This document shows, piece after piece, positions 1 through 54,037 of a stretch of DNA of 64,000 bases. Source of the DNA: Rhodamnia argentea (lineage: Eukaryota > Streptophyta > Magnoliopsida > Myrtales > Myrtaceae); NCBI RefSeq assembly GCF_020921035.1, contig NC_063156.1, forward strand, positions 3,658,001 to 3,722,000, read 5' to 3'. Numbering within the stretch: position 1 is the stretch's first letter; each line of letters opens with the position of its first letter. A model generated the notes under the pieces. The model had not been told where the DNA came from and searched no databases. It worked only from the letters and a program-made list of their open reading frames with translations. The position numbers and the translations under genes were made by a program.

Positions 1-311
1 TTGAACTCGTTCGTCTCGTACATGTTGATGTCGTGCTTTGACAATAGAGAGAAAGATTCGATCTTGAACACATAATGCGCCGGCGACATCACTCTCCTCT
101 CCGTAGTTATCTCTGCTCAGTCACAACTCCCCCCAAAATCACAAACAGCGAAACAGCAATAACCCCAGAAAGGGAAAAAGAAATCAACTGAAGAAGATCG
201 TTGTTTTTAGTTGTTTTTGGGGAGAAACTCGAAGAGGGAAGTGGTACCATCATGTTCGTCGTCCCCTTCAGCAGCATTTGAATCTATTGCTTCTCTTTTT
301 ATCTTCGACAT
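1..311 (-). CDS. Two-MATH-domain protein, 5' end only (gene A)
   Basis: This is the first part of a MATH-domain gene that runs off the left edge. Exon 1 is 248-311 (ATG at 311, MSKIKREAIDSN start, 64 nt). It ends at a GATG|GTACCA donor. Exon 2 is 1-112, after a gagcag acceptor, and encodes the start of MATH domain 1 (SPAHYVFKIESFSLL, then YETNEF). The phase-1 junction gives a Glu codon, as in the other copies. The longer exon-1 form seen in the 6,203-8,208 gene is not possible here, because a deletion brings a stop after LPKNN; the 64-nt form stays open. MATH domains bind peptides and partner proteins and in plants often act as adaptors. The function of these MATH-only proteins is not established. 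A hAT element sits about 165 bp upstream of the ATG and may have changed the promoter. Whether the gene is intact outside the window is unknown. Confidence 0.72.
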
Positions 312-474
312 AGTCGGGGTTCTTCGAGTAGCCACAGCACGGATGATGCTTGATGACTCTCGTGGTGTTTGCCGGTGTGAGAGAAATGGAAGAAAAAAGA
401 CTGCTTTTTACTTTCGTTCCCCAAGATTGAGTCGCTTCGTTCCGAAGAAATCATCATTGAGGAGAGATAAGAGA

Positions 475-482
475 ACTGAAAC
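475..482. repeat. Left target-site duplication of the hAT element
   Basis: ACTGAAAC immediately precedes the left terminal repeat; the identical octamer follows the right terminal repeat at 3342-3349. Confidence 0.93.
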
Positions 483-3341
483 TAGACATGGCCAAAATGG
501 AACCATGGCCCGGAATCGGCTCGGAACCGGCTCGTTTACCGGCCTAGAATCGGCCCGTTGACCGGGCCCACGGTTCCGGGCCAGTTCCAACCTGTTTATT
601 TTAAAAAAATAAAAAGGTGGGTGGTTGGCCCAGTGGGGAAAGAGCCGTTGGGTTCTTCCCCAACCCCCGCGGCCCCCGCGACCCCCCTAAAACAAACGGC
701 TCTTTGGGCCGCCGTTGCATGCACACAAAAAAAGTTAAATAACTCTCCCCTTCTCTATAAATATCTATCATCTCACTTTCATTTTTCTCACAAATCATCT
801 CAACAATTTTCTCAATTCTCTCAAATTCTCTCAATCCCGCCTCAATTCTCTCAATCGGATTTCCGATCAATTCTCTCAAAAATGACAAGTGGAAGCAGAA
901 ATACTCAAAAGGCCAAGATGGCGATAGGAGATTCCGAGTATTCTATTCCTGGATATGATTATGATCCTCGTGAGTATGCATGTTGGGAAAACGACAACGA
1001 TAATATCAACGTTGTTCCCATTCCAAACGTCGAGCACGTCCCAACACAAGAAAGTCTTCATCATTCCACCGATGTCGAAGAAATGTCAACGTCAAATGAG
1101 CCGGAACGGAAGTGCCGAGAGAGTACATCCGACTTGTGGCTGCATTTCAACAAGGTACGTGATGAAAGCGAAGGTAAGTATAATATAACTTGTAAATATT
1201 GTTCGCAAACATACAAATTTACGAAAGGAGACGGTTACGTAACATTCCGTCGGCATCTAACGAAAAAACATCCAACTCAAGCGGGGAGCGACACTACGCA
1301 ACAACAAATTTTCGGGTACGCAAATTTTAATATTCATCCTTTATTCCGTTACACCGATGTACTTTATAAACAAACATTAGCTGAATACGTTGCCCTTGAT
1401 CATGCTCCGTTTACTACCGGTGAAAATTTTAATTTGAAATATTTGATAAATACTGCGTTGGTTCCGCAAACACCATTTATTTCAAAAAATACTCTCAAAC
1501 GCGAACTTTTGCATCTTTATAAAAAATAAAAAAATCTTTAGCAAATTTTTTTGTGAAATTCAATGGATGTGTGCATTTAGGTAGCGATATTTGGAGTGAT
1601 CCTTGGCAAATTCATTCTTATATGGGTGTCACGTGTCATTGGATAGGTGACGACTAGACCATTAAAAAAAAACTTATTGCATTTCGAGTTTTTGATAAAA
1701 ACATTTGGCTCATAATATTTATAGAATAATTAGGCAAGTTTTAGAAGAGTATAATTTGATAAATAAAGTATTTTCAATTAATTTTGATAATGCCGCCGCA
1801 AATACCACTTTCATTTCCGAATTAGAAAATATTTGCAAACTCTATTTTGGTGGACAATTTTTTCACATTAGATGTGATTGCCATGTTTTAAATTTATGTG
1901 TATAAGATGTTTTATGACTCTTGACACTTCTCTCACCCTAATAAATTATGCAATTAAATTTTTATGGAGTCGTGCTCATTTTATGAAAGCATGAGGAAAA
2001 TTTTGCAAACAACATGGGAGAAGGGCAAAAAGGTTTTCAAAAGATATTCCGACTCGTTGGAATTCTACCTACGAGTTGTTTCGTCAAACTTTTGATTACA
2101 AAGATTTATTATGTATGTTTATTTCACAAAATATTTCCGAAATTGCTTTACTTCCGCAACATTGGGACGTTTGCAAAAAAAAAAAATAGATTTTTTGAAA
2201 ATTTTTAATGATGCTACTAATAATTTATCTGGTATTTATTATACTACTATGTATTTATTTTTAATAGAGTGTGTTAATATTGGTGGTGTTTTTAGTGAAT
2301 ATGAAAAAAAATACTGAATTAGATCGGACTATTTTAGTAATGCGAGAAAAATGATTACATTATTATTTCAAAATTCCTCTTGTCTATTTAGTTGGTATTA
2401 TTTTTTATCCACGTATTAAATTAGACAGTTTACTAGATTATTTGAATGTGTATTATTATGATTGTTTACATTTGAAAGATTCAATAGATATTTCAAATAT
2501 AAAATAAGATGTTAAAGAATCTATAGTAGTATTATATGGAAAATTTTATACTAGATATGGTTTAAGTGATTGTGGATCTTTACAATCTATCGCCTCACGA
2601 AGCGAAGCTGGTAATTCGCTTAGTAGATGGTACAATATGCTCAAGAGTAGACAAAAAAAAAATGGGCAACAGGTAGTATTTCTGAATTAGAAAAATATTT
2701 AACCACTCAATTTGAGTTTCGTGATACAAAACATAGTACAGATTTCCAAATCCTGGAGTGGTGGAAGAGTCACTCAATTGATTACCCAGTTCTCGCCCTC
2801 ATCGCTCGCCGGATATTAGCAACCCCTTCTTCAACGGTTGTAGTTAAACAAGCATTTAGTGCTGGAGGATTAATTTTGAACTCTCGCCGTTCAAGATTAA
2901 GTTCGAGTCCTGTGGAAGCTCAAGCTTATGTCGACGATTGGACGAATGCTAGATTTCGACACCAAGAGCTGGATCGAGAATACAAATTTTTTAGTGAGGA
3001 TTGTGGAGATATCACCACCACGGGTATCACAACGGGTAGCAATGATTGACAATGAGGTAAGTTGGGGTTATCAAAGGTAAAAGAACTATAAGGGCTTTGA
3101 TTTTTTTATCCCTAAGAAGATATGTAGACGTTTAATGATAATTCATTAAGTTCAAGCCTATTCATCCTCTCTCTCTTTTTTCTCCACATTTTATTACAAT
3201 GTACAATTTGATTATAATTTATAATTTATTATGTTTATTTTATTATTTATTATTTTAAAAATTAAAATTAAAAAACGAAACCGGAACCGGCCCGTAACCA
3301 CCTGTTCCACCTTTTCGTGGAATCGGAACTGGCCATGTCTA
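483..3341 (+). mobile_element. hAT DNA transposon, full length but non-functional
   Basis: A 2,859-bp element with short terminal inverted repeats: the left end begins TAGACATGGCC and the right end finishes GGCCATGTCTA. It is flanked by a perfect 8-bp target duplication, ACTGAAAC, at 475-482 and 3342-3349. Eight-base duplications are the hAT superfamily hallmark. GC-rich CGGAACCGG-type subterminal repeats lie just inside both ends. The internal gene encodes a BED zinc finger and a hAT dimerisation region but is broken. It interrupts the 5' flank of the MATH gene at 1-311; the host sequence resumes at 3350 and matches the uninterrupted flank near 8,340-8,420. Confidence 0.93.
882..3049 (+). 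pseudogene. hAT transposase (BED zinc finger, RICESLEEPER/DAYSLEEPER type), degraded
   Basis: The transposase starts at ATG 882, downstream of a TATA-like CTATAAATA near 755 and a leader rich in CTCTCAATT repeats. The first 216 codons (882-1529) are open. They contain a BED-type zinc finger: CKYC, then HLTKKH about 25 residues later, within a DLWLHFNKV context. After the stop at 1527-1529, recognisable hAT core sequence continues in fragments: GSDIWSDPW near 1,580, and an open stretch at 1705-1905 with FDNAAANT and HIRCDCHVLNL. The C-terminal dimerisation region at about 2,690-3,049 includes WWKSHSIDYPVLALIARRIL and AFSAGG. Stops and frameshifts between these blocks rule out a functional enzyme. 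Movement would have needed a transposase from elsewhere. Confidence 0.9.
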
Positions 3342-3418: not shown

Positions 3419-3990
3419 TAGACTTGGCAATGGGCCGGTTTGGGCCCGGAACCGGCCCATGGACTAATCGAAACCTGCCCTTTGATAGGGCCGGTCGGTT
3501 CCGAACCAAAACTAGCACGGCCCCTCACATGCTGGTTACGGTTAGAAAAGAATTCAGAATAGGTTCCGGGCCGGTTCCGAACCGCCTTATAGCCGTTGGG
3601 TAGGCCCAAAAAAAAAAAAAAAAGGAAAGAGCCGTGGCTCTTTCCCCCAATGGGCCGTTGCATTGTAACGGCCGAATACCCTATTCCATTTTTTTCTCTT
3701 AACCAATTTATCCTAAATTCTCTATAAATACCATTCTCCCTTTCATTTTTTCTCACAATTTCTCTCAAATTTTTTTTAATTCTCTCAATCTGCTCAATTC
3801 TTTCAATTTTCTGAATCGGCTTTCTGCTCAATTCTTTGAAAAAAAATGGCAAGTGGAAGCAAAGCTAATGACAAGGGAAAGAGCCCGATAGGGATGGGGC
3901 AATCCAATTATCCTCAACCTCATGATCAATATGATTCTCGTGAGTTTACATGTTGAGTAGACGCTGATAATAATATCAATTATATTTTTC
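3419..3990 (+). mobile_element. Second hAT-like element, 5' end only, truncated
   Basis: It starts TAGACTTGGCAATGGGCC, similar to but distinct from the left end of the element at 483, and has the same arrangement: CGGAACCGG repeats, an A-run, a TATA-like CTCTATAAATA at 3,720, a CTCTCAATT leader, and an ATG at 3846. The start of the BED transposase (MASGSKANDKGKSP) hits an in-frame stop near 3,955. Sequence identity with the first element is lost at about 3,990, where a MATH pseudogene begins. No right terminus or target duplication can be seen. It lies only 77 bp from the first element. Confidence 0.75.
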
Positions 3991-4670
3991 AGAAATTAAT
4001 TTCGAGGAAAATGTTAAACGCAATTCTGATTATAACTTCTAAAAAGGTTACACTTGCGATATTAAGGGAACACGAGGAGGTTTTGCGCGATGAGGTCCAA
4101 GGGGGGTATTTCAAGATTTGTGCCTCTAGAAAATTTCAAGGATCAGTCGAACGGGTACCTTGTTGACGACACCCGTGTCTTCGGTGCGGAGGTTTTTTGT
4201 CATCAAGAACTTGGGCATAGGTGAATGTGTAACACTAAGAAATGATATTTCCTCACAGACTCATGAATGGAAGATACCAAATTTCTCAAGTTAGGTAAAA
4301 GAGTCCTCCGATTCTGAAATATTCTTTGCTGGAGATCAGGAATGGTAGTCTTTGCTCGGTCATTAAAAGGCTGATTTCTACAAAGGTCTTCACTAAATAA
4401 GTCGCGCCGCCCGTTAATTAGTAGCGAATTCGGTTTGTTCATATAGTCCGTGTAATCAGAATCTACTGAAATATCTCAATGTGTCTAAACTGTAATTTTC
4501 TGCACCCTTGGCCTTGTCTTTGCTACTTTGCAGCCTGTAATGTATGGTTGAGTAGCTCCATCCCGAACTGGGGTTGGCCGTCTCTCGTGCCGCTGAAACG
4601 GTTCAGGTAATGCTTGACAGATGATTCATGTGTCCTTGAAGCCTAAGTCACTGTGCTCGGCGCAGTTATC
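3991..4670 (+). pseudogene. Chimeric MATH-gene fragment
   Basis: Homology to intron 3 of the 28,484-29,889 gene starts at about 3,992. An exon-4 equivalent starts at 4,067 (MRSKGGISRFVPLENF, then NGYLVDDT) and is broken by frameshifts near 4,195 and 4,295. Exon 5 is missing. The sequence then switches to an intron and last exon of the 21,240-22,901 type (exon from about 4,541, reading NVWLSSSIPNWGWPS), with stops after KRFR and in LEA*VTVLGAV. Two subfamilies are therefore joined in one dead copy. The left boundary coincides with the truncated hAT element. Confidence 0.8.
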
Positions 4671-5610
4671 TGCAGGCTTCTCTGCCTTTGGTCAGATTTC
4701 TCCCAAACAGTACTCATTAATCATTTCGATCGTCCTAACATGTTGCAACTTTGTTAACAACTTGATTCATTTGCATCGTAAGATATCATCCGTATATCAA
4801 AGAGCACAAGGATTACTCATGCTTCCAGTGCATCGCACGGGTTTAAACAAAAGCCAAAAACTTGTATACCAAATCAAATCAAGCCCGACCAAAACAAGAC
4901 CTCTACGACGAGTCAACAGGGACTCGTTATCAATGAAACAGCATGCATCCATGAGATAAAACGGTTGGTTCTTGAAAGAGTATACAGATGATAGACCATC
5001 ATCTAAGGAGTCTCTCAGAACCCAAAAAGCCAAAACTGCCCAAGCATCCTGTACAACGAAAGGGCATCATCCCGAATCCTTGAATATATTCCCACTCTCA
5101 GACCTGATGTAGAGCTAATCAGAATTAGCAAATGCATGCATCAGCGAGATTGATCGAGTTGAGAGCTTCGAATTTCTTGTAATATTAATAAAAGAAAGCA
5201 ATTAGTTAGATCGTGGATGACATATTTTAAGGTCTTGGCAAGGAGTGTCTCCGAGGCTCCGAGTAACCCTACCTAACAAAGAAATATTGTCATTTTTAAT
5301 GAACCGACTCTGCAAACGAAGCAGCTGAATCTTTAACAAAGACAAAGAAGCTCTCTGTATAACATTTCTTCTTCCATTTAGTACCTAATCACCACTGACT
5401 AGAGACCATCAAGGATCATCAAAAGTCGGAAGTCCCTGAAACAGAACAACAAAGAAAGAAATACTACAACAATGAAACGGGCAACGAAGCTGATAATGCC
5501 ATTTAGTTTCGCTCCTGATTTCTCTCTTTGTTTATGGGGGTAGATTTTAACAGAGCAGGAAAAACCACAGAGTACACAGATCTCTCTCTCTCTCAAAGAG
5601 TTAGATATCC
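4671..5610. other. 3' flanking block shared by several MATH copies; no gene
   Basis: Non-coding. The stretch at about 4,780-5,300 recurs downstream of the copies ending at 37,532 and 48,561 (compare 37,800-38,310 and 48,780-49,250): the same AAATCAAGCCCGACC motif, CGACGAGTC and TCCTTGCAT-like segments. This marks it as part of the duplicated unit. Short open frames here are not conserved between copies. Confidence 0.7.
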
Positions 5611-6202: not shown

Positions 6203-8208
6203 TCATGGCAGTTTACTCACTGTGCCAAGAACTTTCACTTCAGCCTCCACGACACACGCATTGCCAACTAAGTAATCTTGAACAGCTTTCAGCGGAAAGA
6301 AGGAGGGCCAACCCCACTCTTTATTTGGACCACCAAACCAATTAAGACCTGCAAAAGAAGAATTAGCTGTGATAATGAGAACAATGATGGCAAAACAAAT
6401 AAATCAGATCAAATACTTAGTAATTTGGCGTGATTATGCTACAGTGAGAAAGGGGGATATGAGCTATAACATGTTTCATTATAATGATATTCCAGTTATC
6501 TTTCCATTCATTTGTGATATAATTAAGATTAGCTAAAGATTTTGTGCTCGCCATCCATTTTAGATCAGCAGTCACCACCTGTCCGCTGATACATCTTGCC
6601 AGCTTCCCCTCTCAACCGAATGGTAAAAGTGGCTTTGACTTTCTGATCACCTGAATTTACTAAACAAAGAAGAATCGAAAGATTTTTGTCCCTGTTACGC
6701 CCATCACCCCTTGGATGTAGATGTAACTTCCTGAACATAAGGAGAAACACAACCAAGCAATGATAAAAGATCAGAACAAAGGACTATGCAAAAGCAAAAA
6801 AAAAAAAAAAAAAAAAGGAAAGAAAGAAAGAAAGGCTACGGGTAATATATGAACTACCAGTTGTGATTCCCCGCCGTGAATACTTCAGAGTAGCAGTCAT
6901 TCACCAAAGTGGAGAAGTTTGACATCTTCCATTCGTGACTAACAGACTTCGGACTCACTTTTAGGGTCAAGCATTCACCCAGACCTAAACTTTTGACAAC
7001 AAAAACCTCCACTCCAAACACACAAGTGTCATCAACAAGGTAGCCGTTTGACGGATTGATGAAAGTTTTTAGCGGCATAAATCTTGGAATACCCCATTTA
7101 GACTTCAATGCATGAAACCTCCTGTCTTTCCCTGCAACATATGAAGCGAGTGTTCTCCAAGCTACCAAAGGTGTAAATCAATTTTTCTTTAAAAGATGTA
7201 GGGATCAAAAGTACCTTCTTTAAACAAGTATTCATCGTGAATTTGATCAAACACAAAGAACCTAACAGTTGCAATTATCTCCCAGCCAACTTTCAGAGGA
7301 TTGGCCTCAGAAACTGCCAGATATAGGGACACGTGATCTTCTCCCTTCTTGTTCTTGTCTCCATTAGGATAGAGAATCAATCTCCTACACCATGACAAAG
7401 CATCAGATTCAAGAAACATATACCCATGAAGAGTTTCCTTTCTTAGCTGGATAACAATTGATTTGCCCATTAAGAGATCTTCAATTTTGAGACCGTTGAG
7501 CAAACTTTCTCTAACACAATTGGAGCTTTTGTTTCTTTCAATGAAGGACCGCATCACTATGCATAATTAGCAATCGTGTAGTCACCAATAATCACATGAA
7601 ACAACCCACCTTAACCACATCTTTGCTTGGATACCCGCATACACCAGATACATCTGAGCCTCCTAAAATGTGGATTCAATCAGAAAGAACAACACAACCT
7701 AAAAGACACCCTCATGCCTTTTTTATGACAACATATATACCGCAATTCTTGCTGTCAATGTTACGAAACAATACAACCTAGAAGACACAGAGCGTGGAGT
7801 AGCACAAAAATTTGTGCTTGCAGAGAGAGGTTATAGATATACCACTTCTGGTCACCAACTTTGAAATCGTTCGTCTCATGCATGGTGATGTCGTTCTTTG
7901 ATAATTGAGAGAAAGACTCGATCTTGAACACATAATGCGCCGGCAAGATCTCTCTCGTCGCCGTTGTTATCTCTGCTCAGTTAAACCCGCCCCAAAATCA
8001 CAAACAGCGAAACAGCAATAACCCCAGAAAGGGAAAAAGAAATCAAACTGAAGAAGATCAATAGACCCATCGTCAAGCCATAAAACTCCACAAGTTTATC
8101 TTTATTAGTTGTTTTAGGGAGAAAATCAAAGAGGGAAATGGTACCATCATGTTCGTCGCCCCCATCAGCAACATTTGAATCTGTTGCTTCTCTTTTCCTC
8201 TTTTGCAT
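6203..8208 (-). CDS. Two-MATH-domain protein, intact (gene C, 337 aa)
   Basis: Six exons: 8067-8208, 7843-7972, 7215-7384, 6858-7131, 6579-6730 and 6203-6348. All introns are GT-AG, the phases close (1,2,1,2,1), and the total is 1,014 nt including TGA. The N-terminus (MQKRKREATDSN) is basic and could be a nuclear-localisation signal; this is inference. MATH domain 1 covers about residues 60-197 (HYVFKIESFS, RLILYPNGD, SLYLAV, FFVFDQI, GYLVDDTCVFGVEVF). MATH domain 2 covers about 213-333 (HEWKMSNFS, KLHLHPRGD, LSILLCLV, FTIRLRG, then VVEAEVKVLGTVSKLP at the end). Both domains are interrupted at the same Trp codon. A second in-phase donor at 8144/8143 (GATG|GTACCA) could shorten exon 1 to 64 nt, as in the 40,182-42,121 gene. 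No catalytic domain is present; an adaptor or ligand-binding role is inferred from the MATH family. Confidence 0.86.
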
Positions 8209-10890: not shown

Positions 10891-12051
10891 TCAGAATCGT
10901 ATTTGTGATGTCAGTTTACCAGAAGTGTGTAGGACGGTGACTTCGGCCTCAATGACGCATTCATCATTGACTAGGCAGTCTCGAAAGTGTTCTAGCAGCA
11001 TAAAACAAGATGACCCCCATGAAGAGCTTGAACGACCGAACCATCGTGAACCTGCAAAGTGAACTGTTAGCCACATTTACTAATACAAACTAGATTATGG
11101 AAAGACTGAGCGAAGGACTTTGTAGAACTGGGGATTTATGTTTCCCAATTTGTCAATGATAATACCTTTTCGGCCCTCATGGACAGCACCATCTTGGCCT
11201 CTCAACCGAAAGCTGTACCTTGCTTTAACTTTCTGCTGACGTGCTAGTTCCTTTGAATAGAAATATCGAAAGGCTTTTGCTCCTTCCTCTCCAATCACCC
11301 TTTGCATAGAGACGCACCTTCCTGAATAGATGATTAGTCCCACAACCGTTAAAAGATCCTAGAAAGCAAAAAAAAAAAAAAAAAAATGACAAGCAGACAT
11401 CAAATATATCATTCCTAAATAAGTTAAACAGATTCAAGAAATTTAAGTTACCATTTCTGATCTCCAGCAATAAAAATTTCAAAAGAGCAGGACTCTTCTA
11501 TCAAACTTGAGAAATTTGGAATCTTCCATGCATGTGTCCGTGAGAATATACCCTTTTTTAGTGCTAGACATTCACCTATGCCCGAGTTCTTGATGACGAA
11601 AGCCTCCACTCCAAAAATGCAGGTGTCGTCGACAAGGTACCAGTTCATCCGATGCTTAAAAGTTTCTAGATTCACAAATCTTGGAATACCCCATTTGGAC
11701 CTCATGCCGCGAAACCTCCTGTTGCTCCCTTGATATCATAAGGGTAATTTTTTTTGAAGTTATAATCAAAGTTGCATTTAGCATTTTCCTTAAAATTAAT
11801 GCGTGGAAATGATTATCTCGCTTTACCAAGTATATGTCACGAATTTGATCAAACACAAAGAACCTAATGATTGCATTCATATCCGAGCCAATCTGCAAAG
11901 GACCAGGTCTCGGAAACTGCTAGATATATAGACACAAAACCTTTTCCATTTCTGCTCGTCTCCATTGGGATAGAAAATCGATCTCCTGCAACAATCGGAG
12001 AACTTTAAGCAATAATTCCCACAGATCTCATCAGTCAGATATATCATACAC

Positions 12052-12086
<35 letters not shown>

Positions 12087-12358
12087 ACCATTTGTGGCCT
12101 TCAGATTCGAACTCATTAGTTTCATACATGTCTATGTCGTTCTCCGAAAACAGAGAGGAGGACTCTATCTTGAACACATAATCCGCAGGCGAGACATGTG
12201 CGTACTCTGTATTTATTCCAGCTCGGTTCAAAATCAAGCCCAATGAACAAAGTGAGAGAAATCAACTGACATGTTCATGTTCAAGAAACAAAAAATTGTC
12301 TCCAGATTTGGAAATACTTAATGCGAAGCTACGTACCATAATGAGCTTCGTTGTCCAT
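10891..12358 (-). pseudogene. Two-MATH-domain gene, broken (gene D)
   Basis: Paralogue of the intact gene at 28,484-29,889. Exon 1 is 12337-12358 (MDNEAHY) and exon 2 is 12089 to about 12,229. Four lesions are visible. (1) The exon-2 acceptor GCAG has become GCTG; an AG three bases upstream could rescue it in frame. (2) Exon 3 has a 2-base loss at GGAGACGAGC near 11,960 and a compensating-looking extra base near 11,905, leaving the frame wrong. (3) The donor after LVKR is lost near 11,820. (4) Exon 5 has lost bases after SLSIFLF near 11,250. The last exon (10,891-11,051) has also lost its normal stop (ACATGA to ACATCA) and reads on to a TGA at 10,891. MATH motifs such as WGIPRFVNLETF, YLVDDTCIFGVEAF and VIEAEVTVL remain clear. 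It is too damaged to encode the usual protein. Confidence 0.85.
12055..12085. repeat. (GA)n microsatellite beside a splice donor
   Basis: About 31 bp of GA, a few bases from the exon-2 donor of the pseudogene. The paralogous site at 29,586-29,601 has about half the length. Confidence 0.95.
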
Positions 12359-12664
12359 TTCCCTGTATTTATATTTATTTCTTTTTCTATTTCTCGGACT
12401 TCCACTTTTGAAGATTCTTGATGGTTTCTGGTAAGCGGTATTACGTAGTGAATGGAAGAAGAAACACAGTAAGGGCCTTCTTCTTCTCTTTTCCAGGCTT
12501 CTTTTGGGAAGAGAAATAGAGCGACGAAATCACGAGGAGAAGTGTGTGGCGATTTTTTAGTATATTTCTCAGGATTTTCAGTATCTCTTTTGATTATGCA
12601 CATCTGATTTAATTTCCTATGATAATTATATAATAAAGCATATAAATAAGCTCATCTACTATTA

Positions 12665-12666
<2 letters not shown>

Positions 12667-12697: not shown

Positions 12698-12699
12698 AA

Positions 12700-40181: not shown

Positions 40182-42121
40182 ATGGCAAAGAGAAAGAGAG
40201 AAGCAACGGATTCGAATGCTGCTGAAGGGGGCGACGAAGATGATGGTACAGTTCTCCTCTTCGTGTTTCTCCCGATAAAGCAAAGGATGCGATGTGTCTG
40301 TTGATATTCTTCAGTTGATTTCTTTTTCCCTTTCTGGGGTTTTTGTTGTTTATACTGTTTGTGATTTTTGGGGGGTTTTGAACTGAGCAGAGATAACGAC
40401 GGAGACGAGAGAGATATCGCCGGCGCATTATGTGTTCAAGATCGAGTCTTTCTCTCTGCTTTCAAAGAACGACATCACCATGTATGAGACGAACGATTTC
40501 AAAGTTGGTGACCAGAAGTGGTATATCTATAATCTCTCTCTGCAAGCTCAAGTTTTCGTCCTACTCCATGCTTGTTGTCTTCTAAGGTGTATTGTTTCTT
40601 GACATTGACAGCAGAGACTACGGTGTATATATTGTCATAAAAAAGGCATGAGGGTGTCTTTTAGGTTTTCTTGTTCTTTCAGATTGAATCGACATTTTAG
40701 GAGGCTCAGATGAATCTCGTGTATCTTGGTATCCAAGTAAAGACGTGGTTAATGTGGGTTGTTTCGTGCGATTATTGGTAACTACCCGATTGCTGAGTGA
40801 TGCGGTCCTTCATTGAAAGAAACAAAGGCTCCAATCGCGTTTGGCGATGATAGAGAGTTTGATCAAAGGTGTCAAAACTGAAGATCTTTTAATGGGCAAA
40901 TCTATTCTTATTCAGCTAACAACGGAAACTCTTCATGGGTATATGTTTCTTCAATCTGACGTTTTGTCATTGTGTAGGAGATTGATTATCTATCCTGATG
41001 GAGACAAGAGTAACAAGGGAGAAGATCACGTGTCCCTGTATCTGGCTGTTTCTGAGGCTGATCCTCTGAAAGTTGACGGGGAGATAAATGCAACTGTTAG
41101 GTTCTTTGTGTTTGATCAAATACGCGATGAATACTTGTTAAGAGAAGGTATGTTTGTTCCCTTAAATTTATAAAGGAAAATTGATTTACACCTTTGGTAG
41201 CTTGGAGAACTCTCGCTTTATATGTTGCAGGGAAAAACAGGAGGTTTCGTGCAATGAAGCACAAATGGGGTATTCCAAGATTTTTGCCGCTGAAAACTTT
41301 CATCAATCCATCAAATGGCTACCTTGTTGATGACACTTGTGTGTTCGGAGTGGAGGTATTTGTTGCCAAAAGTTTAGGTCTGGGTGAATGCTTGACACTA
41401 AAAGCGAGTCCAAACTCTGTTTGTCACAAATGGAAGATATCAACCTTCTCTACATCGGGGAATGGGCGCTGCTCTGAAGTTTTCACTGCAGGGAATCACA
41501 ACTGGTAGCTCTTATATTAACCATAGCTTCCCCCCCTTTTTTTGCATATTCCTTTGTTCTGATTTTCCTATCATTGCTCGGTTGCGTTTCTCCTTATGTG
41601 TTCAGGAGGTTACATCTATATCCAAGGGGTGACCAGCATAACAAGGACAAAAACCTTTCGGTATATCTCTGTTTAGTAGATTCTGGTGATCAGAAAGTCA
41701 AAGCCACTTATACCATCCGGTTAAAAGGGAAATCTGGCGAGACGCATCAGATGACAGGAGGTAACTTCAGATCTAAAATGGATGGCCAGCACAAAATCTT
41801 TAGCTAAGCTTAATTATATTGAAATGGAATGGAAAGATAGCTGGAATGCTGATTATAACGAAACATGTTATAGATCTGATCCTCCTTCCTCTTCAGCTAA
41901 GTATGATCTGACTTATTTGGTTTGCCACCATTGTTGTTGAGTTTAAGATTGATACAGTTAATTCCTTTTTAGCAGATTATTGGTTTACTGGTCCAACTAA
42001 AAAGTGTGGTATGCCCTCCTCCTCCTTGCCGCTGACAACCGTTCAAGATGACTTAGCTGGTAATGATTTTGTCGTGGAGGCTGAAGTGGAAGTTCTTGGC
42101 ACAGTGAGTAAACTTCCATGA
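40182..42121 (+). CDS. Two-MATH-domain protein, probably intact (gene H, 312 aa)
   Basis: Exons: 40182-40245, 40391-40520, 40978-41147, 41231-41504, 41606-41760 and 41976-42121; 939 nt with TGA. Exon 1 (MAKRKREATDSNAAEGGDED) is modelled with the GATG|GTACAG donor. The longer exon-1 form is destroyed here by a deletion after LLFVFLP that would lead to a stop. MATH 1: HYVFKIESFSLLSKND, RLIIYPDGDKS, SLYLAVSEADP, NGYLVDDTCVFGVEVF. MATH 2: HKWKISTFSTS, RLHLYPRGDQHNKDKNLS, YTIRLKGKSGE, ending VVEAEVEVLGTVSKLP. The last exon has some divergence (TKKCGMPSSSLPL instead of WGWPSFMPL). It is a paralogue of the minus-strand genes at 6,203 and 32,362. The main doubt is exon 1. Confidence 0.72.
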
Positions 42122-43269: not shown

Positions 43270-44274
43270 TGTTTAGCAAAAACTAAATAAAGTCCACCTA
43301 ATTTGAAATAGACTGGACATTTGTTTAATCAGAGTTATGAATGGAAAATCTCGAATTGGCCAATTAGGTTCAAGTACAAGGATCTCTTTCTCGCTATAAA
43401 TTGGAGGCTCCTCCATTTATTTTTGACCGAAGGGGAAATATCCAAAGTAATTCTGCAAAGTTCTGCCAGATTCCAAACTTGCAATGTTCAATTTGAAATT
43501 AGGCCATCAATGCCCTCGAATTGTGCTTGAGAGGAGAAAGAATAAGGGCATTTTGCGGTTTGGTATTGTAATCATAGTTTGAAATACATTGAAATTAAGA
43601 CAATTTATGTCCATGTTCCGATCTAGAGTTCGACTTGTATAATTTACATATATAAAGATATGCCTACGGATATATGCTTGTGCAAAGCGCTAGCTGTGCG
43701 ATAAATATATAGTTAAAAATAAGTTAAGGGAGTGTTTGCTTATGTTCTCCCAATATAACATTTCATTTATCTTTGTGATTGCCATGTTGCAAGACAAATG
43801 ACAAAGTTTTACTACGTGACCCAAGCTTGCATCTCTAATTAAGTTTAAAGTTCAAAGATAAGGATAAAAAGAAAGTAACTTAAGTGATGCATTTTATTTG
43901 ATTCTACTAAAACTATGCAACGATGGATGAAATTCTCTTATCTTAAGCGTAACTTAACTCAATCCAAAAACTCCATTTCGAAGAATATAAAAAATGATAG
44001 TAATTAAATGTAAAGTGCGCTTGCTTAATCCTTGATTTGAAATTGACTAGTATAAAATAGATAAGTGAGAAGTCCATCAGTTTTAATTTATCTCTATAAC
44101 TTAAACTTACAAAATACATTTGTAGTATGCATAATCTCAAAGAAAAACATAAGGAAATCCTACTCTAGTTAGGGGAAATAACAAAGCCAATCAAGCTTCC
44201 TAAATTGGAAAAGCAAATAGTGAAACAAGGCCAATCCCTACCCTACACCACCCTTTCCTCTTACCTCCTAACTG

Positions 44275-44399: not shown

Positions 44400-45285
44400 A
44401 TGGATGATGAAGCTTATAGTATTTATGTCTCCCTCTTAGTTTCTCAAACGTGCACGTGTTCCTGTTTCTCTTGTTTCATAGATTGTTTTTGTCTTGTCTG
44501 ATTTTTGGGTTTGATTCTAGGAATAACTACTGAGATTAGAGTGGTCTCGCATGCACACTATGTGTTCAAGATCAAGTCTTTCTCTTTGTTTTCGAAGAAC
44601 AACGTGTATGAGACGAACGAGTTTGAAGCTAGAGATCAGAAGTGGTATGTCTCTCTTTCTGTAATATAATTCCGTGAAGACTTTCATCTTCTTTTCGCCA
44701 TGAACAGAAATGACCTGTGCCACAAAGTGTGGGAGTGTGCCAAATTTTTTCTATTTCCCTTTTTTTTTCATTGTGAGTGCACTGACCTGGTTCAATAGGA
44801 CTAAATTAATACTAATACAATAAGTTTAGTACTTTTTTGGTACTTTTCCGTTACTCAGGCTTAAGAGTTAATGAAGGGTAGTATGGAGTTTTCCTTAAAA
44901 AACAAGATTTTATAATTTTTATTATCCGTTAGCGCTAAAAGTTGCTTCACAAATTCGAAGTTGGGAACTAGAGAAATTACTGGGCTCGTTAGTGTTTATA
45001 CGGGATCGGTCGCGCATGTGGATCGTTTGATAGAAAGGGAAAAAAGTGGTCCATCATATCTATTTTGCGAAATCGATTTTCTGTCACGACTTAAAAATAT
45101 TGAAGGAAATTCACAGACGAGGCATCTTGATATCCTGCCGTTAGCGACTCTAGACCGACCCTTTGAGCCGGTGCCTAGTCGACGACACCGCATTCACGGA
45201 GGAGGCTGTTGTCACCAAGGGCTGGGGAATAGGCGAATGCTTGAACTGAAAGAGAACAGCATATCATCACAGTTTGAAGTATAGC
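44400..45285 (+). pseudogene. Two-MATH-domain gene, mostly deleted (unit 1)
   Basis: Exon 1 is 44400-44418 (ATG, MDDEAY) and exon 2 is 44521-44644 (SHAHYVFKIKSFSLFSKNN, two codons shorter than usual); both look usable. Exon 3 is missing. A strongly degraded exon 4 lies at about 45,105-45,285 (recognisable CTAGTCGACGACACC and GGCGAATGCTTGAACTGAAAGAG). Nothing of MATH 2 remains before unit 2 begins. Confidence 0.75.
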
Positions 45286-46604
45286 TTTTGTTTAATAGGT
45301 GAATTAGTGCAGTATTATCCATTCATATGTAAAACAAATGAAAACAATTAGATGGATGACTTATCTTAGCATATGAATAAATGTCACTTAATATTAACCG
45401 GAGTAAAATCTTACAATAAAAGAACAAAATTGCAACTTAGTAGTAGCATACCTGTTCACATTTCATTAAGTTTTACTTGTTTATCTTGAATTATCCAAAT
45501 AGGTTCAAGTATGAGGATCGCCCTCTCTCTACAAATGGAGTCTCCTCCATTTAGTTTGACACCCATGATAGACGAAGATATATCGGAAGTAATTCTGCAA
45601 AGTAATTTCGAATTGTGCTTGAGAGGAGAAAGAATCATAGCATTTTTGTGGTTAGATATGGTAATTAGAAATTGCAATACACTTATTCAAGTTAATACTA
45701 TTGATGTACAATTTCTGATCCAGAGTTTGATTTGGGTGTTTACATACGTAAATATATGTCTACCGATATATGCCCGTGCCACGCCATAAGTATATATTTT
45801 AGCAATATAGTTAAGGGAATGTTGGCTTATGTGCTTGCAATAGAACATTTCATTTCTACGTGACCCAAGTTCATCCAATTAGTATTTACTTTATGACTTT
45901 TTCATCCGAAACTTGAATATCTCATTAAGATTTAATTTCAAAAGATAAGGGTAAAAAGAAAGCATCTTAAGTGATATATTTTATTTGATTCTACTAATTC
46001 TATACAACTATGAATGAAATAGATAATCTGATATATTTCAGTTAACAATATCTATCCTGCTAAGAGTAAAGTATAAGCATGAATAATATGATTTTTCCGA
46101 TGATATACAGTCTGTGATTTTTTTGATGATATTTTCTACAATGAAACAAAAACTATTTAGCTAAAAATGAAACCAATGATTTTGTTTATTAATATAGCAT
46201 AATTTTAAATAAAAAAAATTATTTAACCAAGAAAGAAATGGTTTATTCAATTCGACAAACATTACGAAAATCACATTATAATTTTTTTGGCGCTACGCAT
46301 TCTTTAGTATCCTTTGCTTTTATTCTACTAAGAATGAATGAAGTATACTATTTATTTAATTTGGCAAAACTTGAAGGGAGAAGTTAACTTAAATTAACAG
46401 ATTAGTGAGGAGTCCCTCAGCTTTAATTTATCTCTAAAATTTAACTCATAAAACACTTTCATGGTAAACAGAATCTCAAAGATAGCATAAAGAAATCCTA
46501 TTCTGGTTCGGGGAAGTAAGAAAGCAAATCAAACTTCCTGAATTTGAAAAGCTCGGCAAATCCCTATCCTACACCACCTTATTCCCTTGCCTCCAAACTG
46601 ATGA

Positions 46605-46734: not shown

Positions 46735-48561
46735 ATGGATGATGAAGCTTGTGGTATTTATGTCGCCCTCATAGTTTCTCAAGCGTGCACTTGTTGTGAG
46801 ACATTCTTGTTTCACAGATTGTTTTCGTTTTGTCTGATTTTTGGGTTTGATTCTACTGAGCAGGAATAACTACGGTGATTAGAGTGGTCTCGCCGGCACA
46901 CTATGTGTTCAAGATAGAGTCTTTCTCTTTGCTGTCGAAGAACAAAGTCGATGTGTATGAGACGAACGATTTTGAAGCTGGAGATCAGAAGTGGTATATC
47001 TCTCTTTCCATAGAATAATTCCTCAGAGACTCCCATCTCGTTTTCACCATGAAAACAAATAATCTGCGCGGCAAAGTGTTGGAGTGCGCCAAATTGACTT
47101 TACTCCTGGACTGTTCGTATAGTATAAGAGTGGATTTCATGCATCGTTCTCATGTGAGGACATTGAATTTGATTCTGGTTGATCAAGCTAAAGACAGAAA
47201 ATAAAGTCAATCAAGTATCTAAAAGTTATATAATCATGGCACTGACAAAATTTTGGACTCCTCTTTCTTCTGTTCATTTGGTGTAAAGTCCGCGTATTGT
47301 GCAGGAGACTGATTCTACATCCCAAAGGAGACAAAAACAGAAACGGAGGAGATCACCTGTCTATATATCTAGCGATTTCCAACAAGTCTCCTTTGAAAGT
47401 TGGCTCCGAGATAAATGCGACAGTTAGGTTCTTTGTGTTAGACAGAATTCGCAACCGGTACTTGATGAAAGAAGGTAATTCCATCAACATCGATCCAAAA
47501 AGAAAAGGCAAAATTCAACCTTTGGTTACTCACGTGTATGTTTTGCCCTTATGATGTTAAAGGGAGACCTACAAGGTTTCACACGACCCAGTCTCAATGG
47601 GGCATTCCGAGATTTATACCATTAGCAACTTTCATTGACCCATCCAATGGATACCTCATTGACGACACCTGCGTTTTTGGAGTGGAGGTTCTTGTCATCA
47701 AGAATTCGGGCTTGGGAGAATGTTTCACACCAAAAGAGGGTACATCATATACACATAAATGGAAGATATCAAGGTTCTCGAGTTTGAAACAAGAGTCCTG
47801 CTGGTCCAAGCCATTTTTGGCTGGCAATCAGAAATGGTTGACTTGATTCTTGAGTGTTAAAATTTCCATATGAATGTTAACTTCGCTTCCAAGCATCCTC
47901 ATTGGTTAAGTTTCTTCATCTGCTCAGGAAGTTGCATCTATATCCGAGGGGAGATTTAGCAGAGAGGAACAAAAGCCTTTCAATATATCTTTGGTTGGCC
48001 GATTCAGGGAAACTCGATCTTGGGCAGAAAGTTAACGCAAGCTTCACCATTCGGTTGAGAGGCAAAGATGGCACTGTTCTTGGGGAGCGGATGAGTAAAG
48101 GTAATTCTCTCAACTGAAATTGGTGGACTAACTCAATACAATCTCCAGAAAAGCTGTTTTGTTTGGGTGGAGATACTAAATCCGATTCCTTTGAGGGTTG
48201 GCATCGTTATCCGAAATCAGGGCGATCTTTCAAGTTCCCCGTTCCACAAATTCTTCGCCAGGTACTTCCTTACATTTGTCTTAACGTGGCTATAAATGTT
48301 CTCTTTGCAGGTTCGTTTTGGTTCAGTCAATCGACCAATTCGTCAGGTTGGTCCTGTTTTGCGTCCCTGAATAGGGTGCGAGATTCTCTGCACTGCATAT
48401 CAAAGAATCGAAGGGTTAGTCATGCACCCGGTGCATTGCACCCAATGCGGCGTTGGTCGTCTTTCATGCCCTTGAAAACAGTTCGGGAATGGCTGACAGG
48501 TGATTCCTGTGTCATTGAAGCCGAAGTCACGGTGCTAGGCACAACTAGCAAGTTGCCATGA
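46735..48561 (+). CDS. Two-MATH-domain protein with a longer, chimeric last exon (gene J, 338 aa)
   Basis: Exons: 46735-46753 (19 nt), 46864-46993, 47305-47474, 47563-47836, 47928-48100 and 48311-48561; 1,017 nt with TGA. Exon 1 encodes MDDEAC plus one base. MATH 1: HYVFKIESFSLLSKNKVDVY, RLILHPKGDKNRNGGDH, SIYLAI, GYLIDDTCVFGVEVLV. MATH 2: HKWKISRFSSL, KLHLYPRGDLAERNKSLSIY, FTIRLRGKDG. The last exon is 251 nt, about 105 nt longer than in the other copies. It starts like the 52,597 exon (SFWFSQS...WSCFASLNRVRDS), then has about 60 nt resembling 3' flanking DNA of other copies (CATGCACCCGGTGCATTGCACCCAATGCGG, compare 37,835-37,865), then a second exon-6 end (SSFMPLKTVREWLTGDSCV to TTSKLP). The frame is open across the join, but part of MATH 2 is duplicated, so folding may be affected. 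Confidence 0.78.
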
Positions 48562-51024
48562 CAGCATTATATTTACTGGATGTGTTCACGCAACAAGATC
48601 TCTGTAGGCATCTCTGCCTCTGGCTAGATTTTCGTAGACATTACTTAGGCAGATTTTCGTAGACATTACTTATTTATCATGTTGATCCTCCTTATTGAAC
48701 AAGTTGCGACATTTTGCATTTTTGACAGCGTCTTCGTATGCCATAGCTGAAAGTGCAAAGTGTTAATAACTCAGATTCATTTGCATTATGAGATATCCTC
48801 AGCATATCAAACGAATACAAGGATTAATTGGGTGAAATGTTCACTTTTATACCAAATTGAATCAAGTCCGACCAAAACATACCCTTCGAGACGAGTCGAA
48901 GGGACTCGCTATTCAGGGAAACAACAATCATCCAAGAGATAAAACGGTTCACTTTTGAAAAAAAAAATTCGGATGAGACACCATTGTCAAAAGAGTTTCT
49001 CTAGACCCAACAAGCCAAAACTTTCCAAATCCTTTGGAATTAAAAGGGCATACTTCCGAATCCTTGCATGTATTCCCACTCTAAAACCCTAATATATAGC
49101 CAATCAAAATTACTGGCCAAGTTGAGAGACTCGAATTTCTTGTGATGTTAAATTAAAAGTACCCATGAATTCATTGTTTGTTGACTGGCTTCATATAATT
49201 TGGATATTTCACATTGTAATGGACTTTTGAGGTTATCATTCTCAAACATCTTTCTTTTATGACTTATTGCACAGGTTTTAAATTTGAAAAAAATCAAATA
49301 TATTTACAGTACATCCGAATATATATAGTCTATCTATTAAATTTGAAAACAAGTCAAAAAATATCTCTCATGTATAATCACAATTTGAAGTATAGCTTTT
49401 GTTTATTATGTGAATAAATGCATTATTTATCCATTCATATTAAAGTAAATGAAAACAATTAGAAGGATGACTTATCTGACTATATGAACAAATGGGTCAT
49501 TTAATATTGACTGGAATAAAATATGAGAATAAAAGAACAAAAATTGGAACTTAGTATAACATGCATGCTCGCATTTTATTGAGTTTTACTTAATTTGTTA
49601 CTTTAGGATTCACTTATTTCTAACAAAGCTTATATCATTTGAAGCAAAATTGTTTAGAGAAAACCAAATATGAAAATAATTTTTCCAATATCCACTTAAT
49701 TTGAAACAGATTGGACATTTGCTTAATCAGAATTATGAATGGAAAATCTTGAATTAGTCAATTAGGTTCAAGTGTGAGGATCTCTTTCTCTTTACAAATG
49801 GGAGACTCTTGCATTTGTTTGACACCCATGACAGACGGAGATATATGGAAAGTAGTTCTACAAAGTTTTGCTAGATTCCAAACTCGTTATGTTTGATTTG
49901 AAATTAGGTCGTCCATGCCCAAGAATTGTGCTTGAGAGGAGAAATTAAAGAATAATAGCATTTTTACGATTCGTTGTTATAGTCAGAAATTGAAATACAT
50001 TTTTTTTTTGAAGTTAATACAATTTATATACATTTATGATCTAGAGTTTGATTAATGTATTTACATATGTAAAGATATGTCTATGGATATATGCTCGTGC
50101 AAAGCACTAGCCATGCACAAATATATTGTTACAAATGATGTTAGGGAATGTTGCTTATGTGCTTGCAGTATAATATTTCATTTACCTCTGTGATGGCAAG
50201 ACACACGACACATTTTTACTTCATGACCCAAGTTCATCCAATTAGTAGCAATTTATGGCTTTGTCATCCCAAACTTTTAACTCTAATAAAGTTTAAATTT
50301 CAAAAGATAAGGATAAAAAGAAAGTATCGCAATTGATATATTTTATTTGATTCTACTAAATCTATACAACTATGAAGATAAATAGGTAATCCACTATACT
50401 TCAATTAACAATATCTATATCTTGCAAAGATTTAAGTAGATTCATGAATGAAATGATTTGCTCGATGATATACATTCTATTTAATGAAACCAAAATTAGT
50501 TAACTACAAATTATACCATTGATATTGTTCATTTAGTTTAGATAACCTTTTTAAAAAATTATTTAAACAGGAATGAAATGAATGATGGATGCTATTTAGT
50601 TAATTTGGAAAAAAGCATTAAGATAATATAAGTACAGGTTATTGAAAATAACATACTACATACTGCATTCCATTTTATTTTATTTTCTACTTCTAAGATT
50701 CTCTTATCTTGAGCATATCTTAAAACAATCCAAAAACTCCAATTCGAAGAATATAAAAACTGAAAGTAATTTAATCTAAAGTGCCTTTACTTTGAAATTA
50801 ACTTAAATAGAACAGATAAGTGAGAAGTCCATTAGCTTTAATTTATCTCTAAAATTCAACTTATAAAATCCGGTATACACAATCTCAAGGAAAAACATAA
50901 GGAAATCCTATTCTGGTTGGGGAAATAACAAAGCCAATCGAATTTCCTAAATTTGAAAAGAAAATAGTGAAACAAGGCCAATCCCTATCCTGCACCACCC
51001 TATTCTCTTGCCTCCTAACTGAGG

Positions 51025-51045: not shown

Positions 51046-51142
51046 TTGTCTCTGATATATTCACATTCGTTCATACCTCGTTCGTCAACTACACTCGGCC
51101 ATCCTATATACCAAGTTGAAAGAGAAATAGTCTACTGTAAAT

Positions 51143-52742
51143 ATGGATGATGAAGCTTACGGTATTTATGTCGCCCTCTTAGTATCTCAAACGTGCACTT
51201 GCTCTGGTTTCTCTTGTTTCACATATTGTTTTTGTTTTGTCTGATTTTTGGGTTTGATCCTACTAAGCAGGAATAACTATGGAGATTAGAGAGGTCTCGC
51301 CGGCTCACTATGTGTTCAAGATCGAATCTTTCTCTTCATTGTCAAAGAACAACATCGACATGTATGAGACGAACAACTTTGAAGCTGGAGATCAGAAGTG
51401 GTGTGTCTCTCTTTCTATAAAACAATTATGTAGAGACTACCGTGGTCTTTTCACTATGAAAACAAATAATCTGTGCTGCAAAGTGTTGGAGTGCGCCAAA
51501 TTGACTTTCTTCGTGGACTGTTCATATAGTATAACAATGAATTTCATGTATATCAAGCTATGGATACAATCATGTAGAACTATACGATCATTGTACTCAC
51601 ACATTTTTGTGCAGGAGATTGATTCTGTATCCCAAAGGAGACAAAAGCAGAAACGGAGGAGATCACCTATCTATATATCTGGCGATTCCCAAGACGTCTC
51701 CTTTGACAATTGGCTCCGAGATAAATGCCACTGTTAGATTCTTTGTATTGGACAGAATTCGCGACCAGTACTTGATGAAACAAGGTAATTTCCATCCACA
51801 TCGATCCAAAGAGAAAAGGCAAAATTCAGCCTTTGGTTACTTATGTATAAGTTTCTCCATTATGGTGTTAAAGGGAGAGATACGAGGTTTAGCGCGATGC
51901 AGTCTCAATGGGGCATTCCCAGATTTATGCCACTAGCGGCTTTCACCGACCCGTCCAATGGATACCTCCTTGACGACACCTGCATTTTCGGAGTGGAGGT
52001 CTTCGTCATCAAGAATTCGGGGTTGGGCGAATGTTTCACACCAAAAGAGGCTACATCATATACACATGAATGGAAGATATCAAAGTTCTCGACTTTGGAG
52101 GAAGAGCACTGCCGGTCCGAGCCGTTTTTTGCTGGCAGTGAGAAATGGTTGACTTGATTCTTGAGAGTTAAAATTTCCATATGAATGTTAACTTCGTTTC
52201 CAAGCATCCTCATTGGTTAAGTTGCTTCATCTGTTCAGGAAGTTGCATCTATATCCGAGGGGAGCTTCAGCAGCGAGGAACGAAAGCCTTTCAATATTTC
52301 TTTGTTTGGCCGATTCAGGGAAACTCGATCTTGGGCAGAAAGTTAACGCAAGCTTCACCATTCAGTTGAGAGGCGAAGACGGCACTGTTTATCGGGAGCG
52401 CACGTCAAGTAATTCTCTCTCAACTAAAATTGGTTGACTAACTCAAGAGCACAATCTCTAGAGAAGCTGTTTGTTTGGGTTGGAGATACTAAAGATCCGA
52501 AATCAGGGCGATCTTTCAAGTTCCTGATTCCACGAATTCTTCGCCTGGTATTTCCATACATTTGTCTTAACGTGGCTATCAATGTCCGCTTTGCAGGTCC
52601 GCTATGGTTCAGTCGATCGAGCCCTGGGTGGGGTTGGTCTTCTTTTGCCTCGCTGAAGAGGGTCCAAGAATACCTCGTGGATGATCTCTGCGTCATTGAG
52701 GCCAAAGTCGCCTTCCTTGGCACAGCTAGACGACTGCCCTGA
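51143..52742 (+). CDS. Two-MATH-domain protein, intact (gene K, 302 aa)
   Basis: Exons: 51143-51161 (19 nt), 51271-51400, 51615-51784, 51874-52147, 52239-52408 and 52597-52742; 909 nt with TGA. Exon 1 encodes MDDEAY plus one base. MATH 1 (about residues 19-155): HYVFKIESFSSLSKNNIDMY, RLILYPKGDKSRNGGDH, SIYLAIPKTSP, FFVLDRIRDQYL, GYLLDDTCIFGVEVF. MATH 2 (about 172-298): HEWKISKFSTL, KLHLYPRGASAARNESLSIF, FTIQLRGEDG, then GWSSFASLKRVQEYLVDD and IEAKVAFLG. The exon-5 donor is CAA|GTAATT, two bases shorter than in unit 2 but still in phase. The gene is the downstream end of the array. The protein is probably soluble, with no signal peptide or membrane segment. Confidence 0.87.
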
Positions 52743-54037
52743 TAATTGGGTTGGCGCTCATGATAAGGCAATTCCTACCTCTGTTTCCGCCGCCTACTGC
52801 TAGCAGTTTCAAGCCAGTAAAACTTGTCGAACTGCCCTTTCGCTACTAGTTGAGTCGATGTTATCCTCTCTTTTAATTCACGATTTCCACTAGCATAGAC
52901 GAACTGTCGATCCTATACTCTCCTCCTTGCTTGCGGTCACAAATTTAGTGGCTGATTCCGACTTTAGAAAGATTTCCTGTGAAGCAACTCCCAATTGCAG
53001 CTCCCTTTCGAGGCGTTCTTTTGCTGTCACATGCTTCGCACAATTATCTCGGGCCGCATCAAGGTTAACCAATTTCAAAAGGGTCGCTGGCCGGCACTGT
53101 GGGTCACACATCTTCAGGAGTTCATGATATGTTACCGCTTAAGAGCTAATAAAGAGTAAAGTGGCGTTCATGATCCGTTTCACTAATTAAAAGTTGGGGA
53201 ATTGGGGAAATCAAATGGGCCCATGGGATCATACCAACATAAGCAATTTCGATATTTTCATTTGGTAGATTAAGCTTCTAAGCAAAAACTTAATGTGATA
53301 GGTTTCCCTTGATAGTGTTACGCATGATTCACATGTTAAAATACTTTGACATTGACTACTTTGTTTTGACTTTTTTTTTCTAATTATTACCTTACGTCTC
53401 ACACGCTAATTTTCACAATCTAATTATAAGTTCCGGCCATAACAAATAACAAAGTGGTAACCCATTTAATCTTGTCTATTACCTTAGAAGGACTTTTCAA
53501 TGGTCTCAAACATGGTATTTATCCTATTTTCAATCGTCAAGTGAGTCTAATCTAAACTTTCCATTGAATTGACAAAAGTTCGAGATACGATTAAATTTAC
53601 AGCACCATAGTCCTATTGAAAAATATAAAAAAAATGTTTTTTTTTGTAAAGTAAAATTTTTTATTTCTCTCTGTTATTTCAAAAAAGAATATGTGATACA
53701 AGAAGTCAACCTGTGTATCAATGTTACCAAGAATTAATTGAAAAATCTCCCAAAATTTATTCTTTTCCTTAATAGAGATCCGGCCACCATAATCTCATGA
53801 TTTGTCTCAAATAAAAATCTATGGCCGAGCAAGGGATTAGATTATTACTTGACTTCAATCTAATTGGGCCCTTCGAGGTGTTTAAGGCAAATACGACCTT
53901 CGCATGAAAGACTACCAAAGGACTTGTCCTCTAGAAAATATCTTCTTTATCTGTGTATTATCCACTTGATCCGACACAAACACGATGGACAGTCGCCGTG
54001 TTCTGCACTGATCTGTATTCTTGCTTTGCCCAGTTCC
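52743..54037. other. 3' flank of gene K and intergenic
   Basis: 52,820-52,960 resembles 38,510-38,650 from another MATH 3' flank. Beyond that the sequence is AT-rich, with one TTATTTGAGA-type phrase near 53,795. No gene seen. The promoter of the G6PDH gene presumably lies at its right end. Confidence 0.5.

Follow-up and report, generated by a model that had tools for sequence, protein, structure and literature searches.

A birth-and-death array of two-MATH-domain genes in Rhodamnia argentea with unequal constraint on its two domains

The window analysed here, a 64,000-nucleotide stretch of the Rhodamnia argentea genome (assembly GCF_020921035.1, contig NC_063156.1, forward strand positions 3,658,001 to 3,722,000), holds at its positions 1-52,742, on both strands, an array of 16 full or partial copies of a gene for a protein with two MATH domains. 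The copies were multiplied by direct and inverted block duplication, 3' ends were exchanged between subfamilies (copies O and C) and most copies died; purifying selection is stronger on the first MATH domain (MATH1) than on the second (MATH2), and the best-supported fast-evolving codons lie in MATH2. We give about even chances to the reading that this is a local birth-and-death array of plant MATH-only genes in which MATH1 would be the constant and MATH2 the variable arm of a two-handed adaptor, a division of the arms that we infer from the sequences.

As copy A runs off the left edge of the window, 16 is a minimum count. Spliced alignment of 15 regions, by a custom-written aligner trialled on hand-built models of copies P and M, gave 15 copies or fragments, and the sixteenth, a 5' fragment (copy Q, 5364-5586), came from self-BLAST. 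Five of the six MATH exon open reading frames (ORFs) scanned matched the Pfam family MATH_2 (PF22486) above its gathering score, with the sixth just under it, and seven overlapping MATH exon queries gave 73 redundant tblastn matches at E<1e-4 in the window compared to 0 in each of 20 dinucleotide shuffles. These approaches confirmed the preliminary description of this DNA, made by reading the sequence, which had reported about sixteen double-MATH copies in some 53 kb on both strands. More than half of them had been called dead, and this was also found, with nine of the 15 assessable copies dead or fragmentary: C, G, I, J, N and Q are heavily decayed or fragments, and E, K and L are frameshifted. 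The reading frame runs unbroken from ATG to stop, across GT-AG introns, in four copies (D, H, M and P); a fifth open copy (O) is chimeric with a 35-codon insertion, and a sixth (F) is open over exons 2-6 only. The six open copies have probably been kept open, because neutral substitution alone would give each of them 2.6-5.8 stops on average (probability of none 0.0025-0.064 each; estimated with a preliminary model of O and with branch lengths chosen by us at about half the pairwise synonymous divergence, dS).

The gene has six exons and encodes a product of about 300 amino acids; the proteins of D, H, M, P and O are 301-338 amino acids long, with five introns in each gene. Exon 1 is short, with 64 nucleotides in the copies whose protein starts with KRKRE and 19-22 in the MDDEAY types, and in the open copies it is followed by exons of 130 (exon 2), 170 (exon 3), 274-277 (exon 4), 152-173 (exon 5) and 140-146 nucleotides (exon 6; 248 in O). 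MATH1 is carried on exons 2 to 4, and MATH2 on the end of exon 4 together with exons 5 and 6. Splice positions are common to the copies and are repeated at matching places in the two domains, where one intron lies inside the codon of the tryptophan preceding the R/K-L strand (phase 2) and another ahead of the last third (phase 1), which suggests that MATH1 and MATH2 arose by an old internal duplication. Pfam scanning (with O in its preliminary model) found two MATH_2 stretches in each of the five complete spliced proteins and in the exon 2-6 protein of F, with whole-protein E values of 6.9e-50 to 1.3e-63, and solely MATH-type families were recognised in these six proteins at E<=0.01. No BTB domain was found in them at that threshold, so they do not have the make-up of MATH-BTB (BPM) adaptors of CUL3. 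Compared with solved structures, the profiles of both domains placed the SPOP MATH domain first (best E 4e-9 for MATH1 and 8e-8 for MATH2, one row of the MATH2 profile having a mistyped start). The basic residues (KRKR) that begin the KRKRE type presumably resemble a nuclear localisation signal.

Where the preliminary description had proposed at least three subfamilies, four were seen (A/D/K/M, E/H, N/O/P and F/L). In a run over nine copies (36 pairs), which used the preliminary O model with alternative splice choices and left the chimeric tail of O unmasked, dS was 0.81-1.54 between subfamilies and 0.15-0.37 within them. Self-BLAST revealed duplicated blocks, direct and inverted, of up to about 4 kb that include flanking sequence: 8653-12645 matches 26141-30230 in two pieces (84% and 80%), and 5599-8313 matches 42680-40046 in inverted orientation (78%). 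At least two copies, O and C, are chimeras, both with an L/F-type 3' end. Copy O (46735-48561, plus strand) is open and of the N/O/P type as far as mid exon 6, where an L-type tail follows, with 35 extra codons in frame; by per-exon identity its exons 2-5 are 86-91% identical to P, and its tail is 83.6% identical to L but 68.5% identical to P. Copy C (4066-4679, plus strand) is a dead chimera with frameshifts and stops, whose exon 4 is H-type (88.1%) and exon 6 L/F-type (80.6% to L), with exon bounds set by hand. Intact, dead and recombinant paralogues therefore lie side by side, as in a birth-and-death array, and the birth-and-death expansion proposed earlier is well supported by the direct and inverted block duplications, the four subfamilies, the nine dead copies or fragments and the chimeras.

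Taken whole, the genes are under purifying selection, with a ratio of non-synonymous to synonymous divergence (dN/dS, omega) of about 0.4. Gene-wide pairwise omega in the nine-copy run was 0.21-0.60, and gene-wide positive selection was ruled out, as all 36 pairs lay below 1. The two domains differed under shared branch lengths, with an omega of 0.291 in MATH1 and 0.560 in MATH2 (likelihood ratio test 14.4, p 1.5e-4) at a synonymous rate ratio of 1.01; these final domain results, and the full six-copy site result and rate grid given below, use a corrected O model. The difference was found after gap trimming (p 2.2e-4), with multi-nucleotide changes allowed (1.1e-4), with nine copies (7.2e-6), without O (p 0.0027) and with one copy per subfamily (p 0.024). 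Within subfamilies, omega was higher in MATH2 than in MATH1 in four of four pairs (0.66/0.39, 1.49/0.24, 0.62/0.32 and 0.73/0.28; pooled Fisher p 5.7e-5), as it was in all 14 pairs listed in another run, which are not independent and were run with the preliminary O model.

Site models placed the fast codons in the same domain. With the six open copies, model M2a was favoured over M1a by twice a log-likelihood difference (2dlnL) of 18.8 (14.9-19.1 across five aligner settings), the favoured class having an omega of about 6 at about 3% of codons. Taken by domain, 2dlnL was 15.2 for MATH2 alone and 0 for MATH1 alone, where a positively selected class was accordingly not found. When the best M2a was compared with the best M1a over a grid of multi-nucleotide rates, 2dlnL was 14.0 for all columns and 15.1 and 16.2 for two gap trims of the six copies (p<0.001), and 11.3 for nine copies (p 0.0035), with heavier multi-nucleotide rates fitting worse than light ones; the maximum among 60 simulated nulls was 8.97 (preliminary O model).

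Four codons exceeded a posterior of 0.8 in the six-copy run, all of them in MATH2. Listed in the order D, M, H, P, O, F, the residues are L/D/S/P/S/T and N/Y/R/L/F/A in two columns just before a WF pair, E/K/S/G/S/Y in the column just before the WG motif, and A/D/E/L/-/W in a column nearer the end, where O was masked. The pair of residues preceding WG in MATH2 aligns with the K-D pair ahead of the tryptophan in SPOP, K129-D130 by counting in the chain. A review (PMC9690554), in its excerpted text, lists Y87, F102, Y123, W131 and F133 of SPOP as critical for binding substrate motifs via a cleft. Of the four fast columns, three are no more than two columns away from one of the five cleft equivalents, a zone of 21 of the 141 columns (hypergeometric p 0.010, post hoc), as do four of eight weaker sites (p 0.017, also post hoc), the Y123 equivalence having been chosen by motif and carrying an uncertainty of about two positions. 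In MATH2 the W131 equivalent reads W, C, W, W, S, C in the same order of copies; the residue is thus replaced in M, O and F, three copies in which the cleft may be changed or no longer working. The comparison of dN/dS between intact copies, proposed earlier as a search for values above 1, thus gave a split answer: gene-wide omega stays below 1, but that of MATH2 is about twice that of MATH1 and a few MATH2 codons fit a value above 1. Likewise, the proposal that these genes face fast-changing targets holds in part, with the faster MATH2, a favoured site class above 1 and the position of three of its four best sites beside cleft equivalents on its side, and the gene-wide omega speaking against a general arms race.

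Proteins with MATH domains are generally known as adaptors, and an adaptor role would be expected for the array proteins from this. In the reading we prefer, each protein would act as a two-handed adaptor in which MATH1 retains a binding partner common to the whole family and MATH2 offers a cleft whose rim residues vary between copies. New copies would sample new peptide ligands, and failures would decay to pseudogenes; the ligands may come from pathways related to stress, immunity or viruses, as has been proposed for the Prunus genes discussed below. The further proposal, that positive selection diversifies the rim of the MATH2 cleft and that new versions of this part of the cleft, which is encoded by the last exon, pass between subfamilies through chimeric exchange of that exon, we regard as rather unlikely.

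Several results weigh against a constant MATH1 and a diversifying MATH2. Six open sequences are few, and four of them are beyond doubt. The site signal fell to 6.7 at multi-nucleotide rates of 0.05/0.02, and with the preliminary O model it fell to 3.75 at 0.1/0.05, to 1.79 with nine copies, to 0.47 when gap-trimmed and to 0 at 0.3/0.3, and ranged from 1.05 to 10.05 across the rate grid in one gap-trimmed set. Loss of the W131 equivalent in M, O and F could reflect decay no less than diversification. No gene-wide pair has an omega above 1 and, for MATH2 alone, only P/O exceeds 1 among the listed pairs, with O chimeric; two of the four pooled within-subfamily pairs include a dead copy. In recent pairs the dS of MATH2 is below that of MATH1 (P/O 0.105 vs 0.377, H/E 0.180 vs 0.391 and F/L 0.329 vs 0.460), so the higher MATH2 omega of these pairs is partly due to lower dS, in which gene conversion may be involved; for H/E, dN is also lower in MATH2 (0.112 vs 0.127). 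Relatives were found in neither of the two contig collections scanned, one viral and one prokaryote.

The closest described systems are plant MATH-only clusters, and the likenesses given here are limited to the excerpted texts of the reports cited. The Prunus PPVres MATHd-containing (PMC) proteins (ParPMC1/2) are, like the array proteins, MATH-only with two MATH domains, encoded in tandem and varying in copy number (PMC12238093), a likeness of described features. Their cluster goes back to a single ancestral gene and postdates the emergence of the Rosaceae, and plum pox virus (PPV) is lowered when the N. benthamiana orthologue is silenced (PMC12238093); for one member, the proposal is that it is a pseudogene silencing the adjacent gene (PMC5787289). 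Prunus has 4-9 such genes and the array 16 copies or fragments, the Prunus counts listing no dead copies, so that this is not a comparison of decay. Class-I MATH-only proteins of Brassica rapa have two tandem MATH domains, many of them with 280-400 amino acids and 4-5 introns (PMC3664471), and the array proteins agree with this typical, though not strict, yardstick in size, in intron number and in having two MATH domains with nothing else recognised. The multiple-MATH group of the Solanaceae includes two-MATH proteins and in potato expanded by tandem duplication, with runs of five and four genes (PMC10218331); both the Brassica and the Solanaceae reports are family surveys, unlike the analysis of a single array made here. 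Grass MATH-BTB families share with the array MATH expansion and many pseudogenes, with at least 74 likely functional genes and at least 40 pseudogenes in rice (quoted in PMC3664471), but have a BTB domain, which was not found in the array proteins. The MATH (TRAF) domains of SPOP and USP7 are the best solved relatives of both array domains, with the WG motif and cleft positions aligning, whereas in SPOP a single MATH domain is combined with BTB and BACK. The words 'positive selection' are absent from the main text of PMC12238093, as is the word 'glucose', which would have pointed to a G6PD neighbour like that of the array, and no comparison of two MATH domains was met in what was seen of that report. 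Domain-wise selection in two-MATH plant proteins was not found described among the listed open-licence literature matches, which is weak evidence of absence. The array is an addition to the known plant tandem two-MATH clusters, and the asymmetry between MATH1 and MATH2 is the part that we have not met described.

A rival explanation is genomic drift with relaxed constraint, in which unequal exchange multiplies and kills copies without any selection favouring new specificity, and MATH2 would simply be under less constraint. The range of gene-wide omega agrees with this, as do the higher omega of recent pairs (0.40-0.60) than of old pairs (0.21-0.36), the loss of the cleft tryptophan of MATH2 in three of the six open copies, the sensitivity of the site test to multi-nucleotide changes and a MATH2 dS that is below that of MATH1 in three of the four recent pairs. 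We hold drift to be quite possible, if short of an even chance, as the settings that fit better favour a site class above 1, the four best sites include three that adjoin cleft equivalents (a post hoc result) and open frames persist where neutrality predicts stops. Tandem arrays are often misassembled, but an assembly artefact, made of haplotypes or a repeated contig, is scarcely credible here: the lowest dS among the 36 pairs is 0.154, copies share at most 93.1% identity in any of exons 2-6 (11 copies), the dead copies carry distinct lesions and the chimeras have breakpoints.

Two further proposals concern what the copies do. By analogy with Prunus, the copies may be host factors, either exploited by pathogens or guarding against these, with copy loss altering resistance, a proposal that names the pathway and is compatible with the constant-arm and variable-arm reading. 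The tandem two-MATH make-up of the Prunus PMC proteins and the effect on PPV of silencing NbPMC point this way, as do RTM3, another MATH protein, which restricts long-distance movement of PPV (PMC5787289), and the receptor-like ORFs that adjoin the array; against it, a link to seed development is described for six MATH-only genes of Brassica (PMC3664471), and we treat it as a tentative but sensible candidate. A pathogen role would be drawn by analogy from the Prunus PMC cluster and RTM3, and the self-recognition role that had also been suggested found no support in this analysis. Dead copies might also act in trans, if pseudogene transcripts, several of them from the strand opposite to open copies, gave small RNAs that silence the open copies. 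The same has been proposed for ParPMC2 acting on ParPMC1 (PMC5787289), and the array has inverted stretches of 84-92% identity (K vs M, for example) and head-to-head pairs (K/L and H/I), but some 6-9 kb separate the inverted arms of K and M, while those of K and L, though nearer to each other, are just 77% alike, and we judge such silencing improbable.

The remaining copies are described here from left to right. Copy A (1-311, minus strand; KRKRE-type) was seen by tblastn and spliced alignment as exon 1 (248-311) and part of exon 2 (3-112), and copy Q (plus strand) is an H-type degenerate exon 1 with the start of exon 2, recognised from its sequence and by self-BLAST to 29996-29707 and 12464-12323. 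Copy D (6203-8208, minus strand) is fully open by spliced alignment, KRKRE-type, with six exons, GT-AG introns and a TGA stop, and copy E (10912-12358, minus strand) is a dead H-type copy in which spliced alignment showed four frameshifts. Copy F (21240-22901, plus strand) is open over exons 2-6, with cysteine as the W131 equivalent of MATH1 and cysteine also in place of the tryptophan at the exon 4/5 junction; no exon 1 was recognisable, although similarity to L persists in intron 1. Copy G (24194-24548, minus strand) is an exon 5 tail with flank, 82.5% identical to the J region, and copy H (28484-29889, minus strand) is fully open and MDDEAY-type, with six exons and a TGA stop. Copy I (30688-31025, plus strand), a 5' fragment of exon 1 and part of exon 2 with one frameshift, may be a third chimera; the region 30506-30914 has a mosaic look, its 5' region and exon 1 being nearest to L (81%) and the start of exon 2 nearest to M (90%). 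Copy J (31142-31402, minus strand) is an exon 5 fragment with flank, 85.7% identical to O. Copy K (32362-34272, minus strand) is dead and KRKRE-type, with frameshifts in exons 1 and 5 and an intron 3 donor changed from GT to GA relative to D, and copy L (35155-37532, plus strand) is dead and F/L-type, frameshifted twice (in exons 3 and 5). K and L form a head-to-head pair, their 5' regions (34038-34594 and 34815-35398) being about 77% alike in inverted orientation and about 220 bases apart. Copy M (40182-42121, plus strand) is fully open and KRKRE-type, with six exons and a TGA stop; copy N (44400-45290, plus strand) is dead and N/O/P-type, with exons 1-2 and a decayed exon 4; and copy P (51143-52742, plus strand) is fully open and MDDEAY-type, again with six exons and a TGA stop.

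Between the copies, no unrelated intact gene had been noted, which is likely but not proven: hAT transposase pieces at 486-3049 (plus strand) interrupt the array, and 10 chosen array ORFs, from the 171 window ORFs of at least 75 amino acids, had no Pfam match above the cut-off, the remaining ORFs not having been scanned. The BED zinc finger and the hAT dimerisation region lie in separate ORFs, with no single frame through both, and a stretch at 3718-3979 is related to the hAT region (73% to 751-1009). No MATH exon was found over some 8.5 kb at 12650-21150, where low-complexity stretches are present. A non-MATH repeat, 70-84% alike between its occurrences, lies upstream of N, O and P (43289-43925, 45262-46240 and 49233-50580) and alone at 15971-17420, and may be a mobile element or what remains of a lost copy. 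Neither RNA families at gathering score nor tRNAs were found in the window. The right border of the array is formed by glucose-6-phosphate dehydrogenase exons (G6PD_N and G6PD_C) at 54329-57266, beyond which lie receptor-like protein ORFs with leucine-rich repeats (LRRNT_2 and several LRR models; 58751-61616). Together with the GT-AG introns, this dehydrogenase gene and these ORFs are read as marking the window as nuclear DNA of a plant.

According to the literature the function of plant tandem MATH proteins is largely unknown, with one cluster tied to plum pox virus susceptibility. If MATH1 is indeed constant and MATH2 variable, MATH1 would lead to a shared partner and comparison of MATH2 would show what changes. 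With its intact, chimeric and dead copies, the array offers a natural series for tracing the turnover of an adaptor family.

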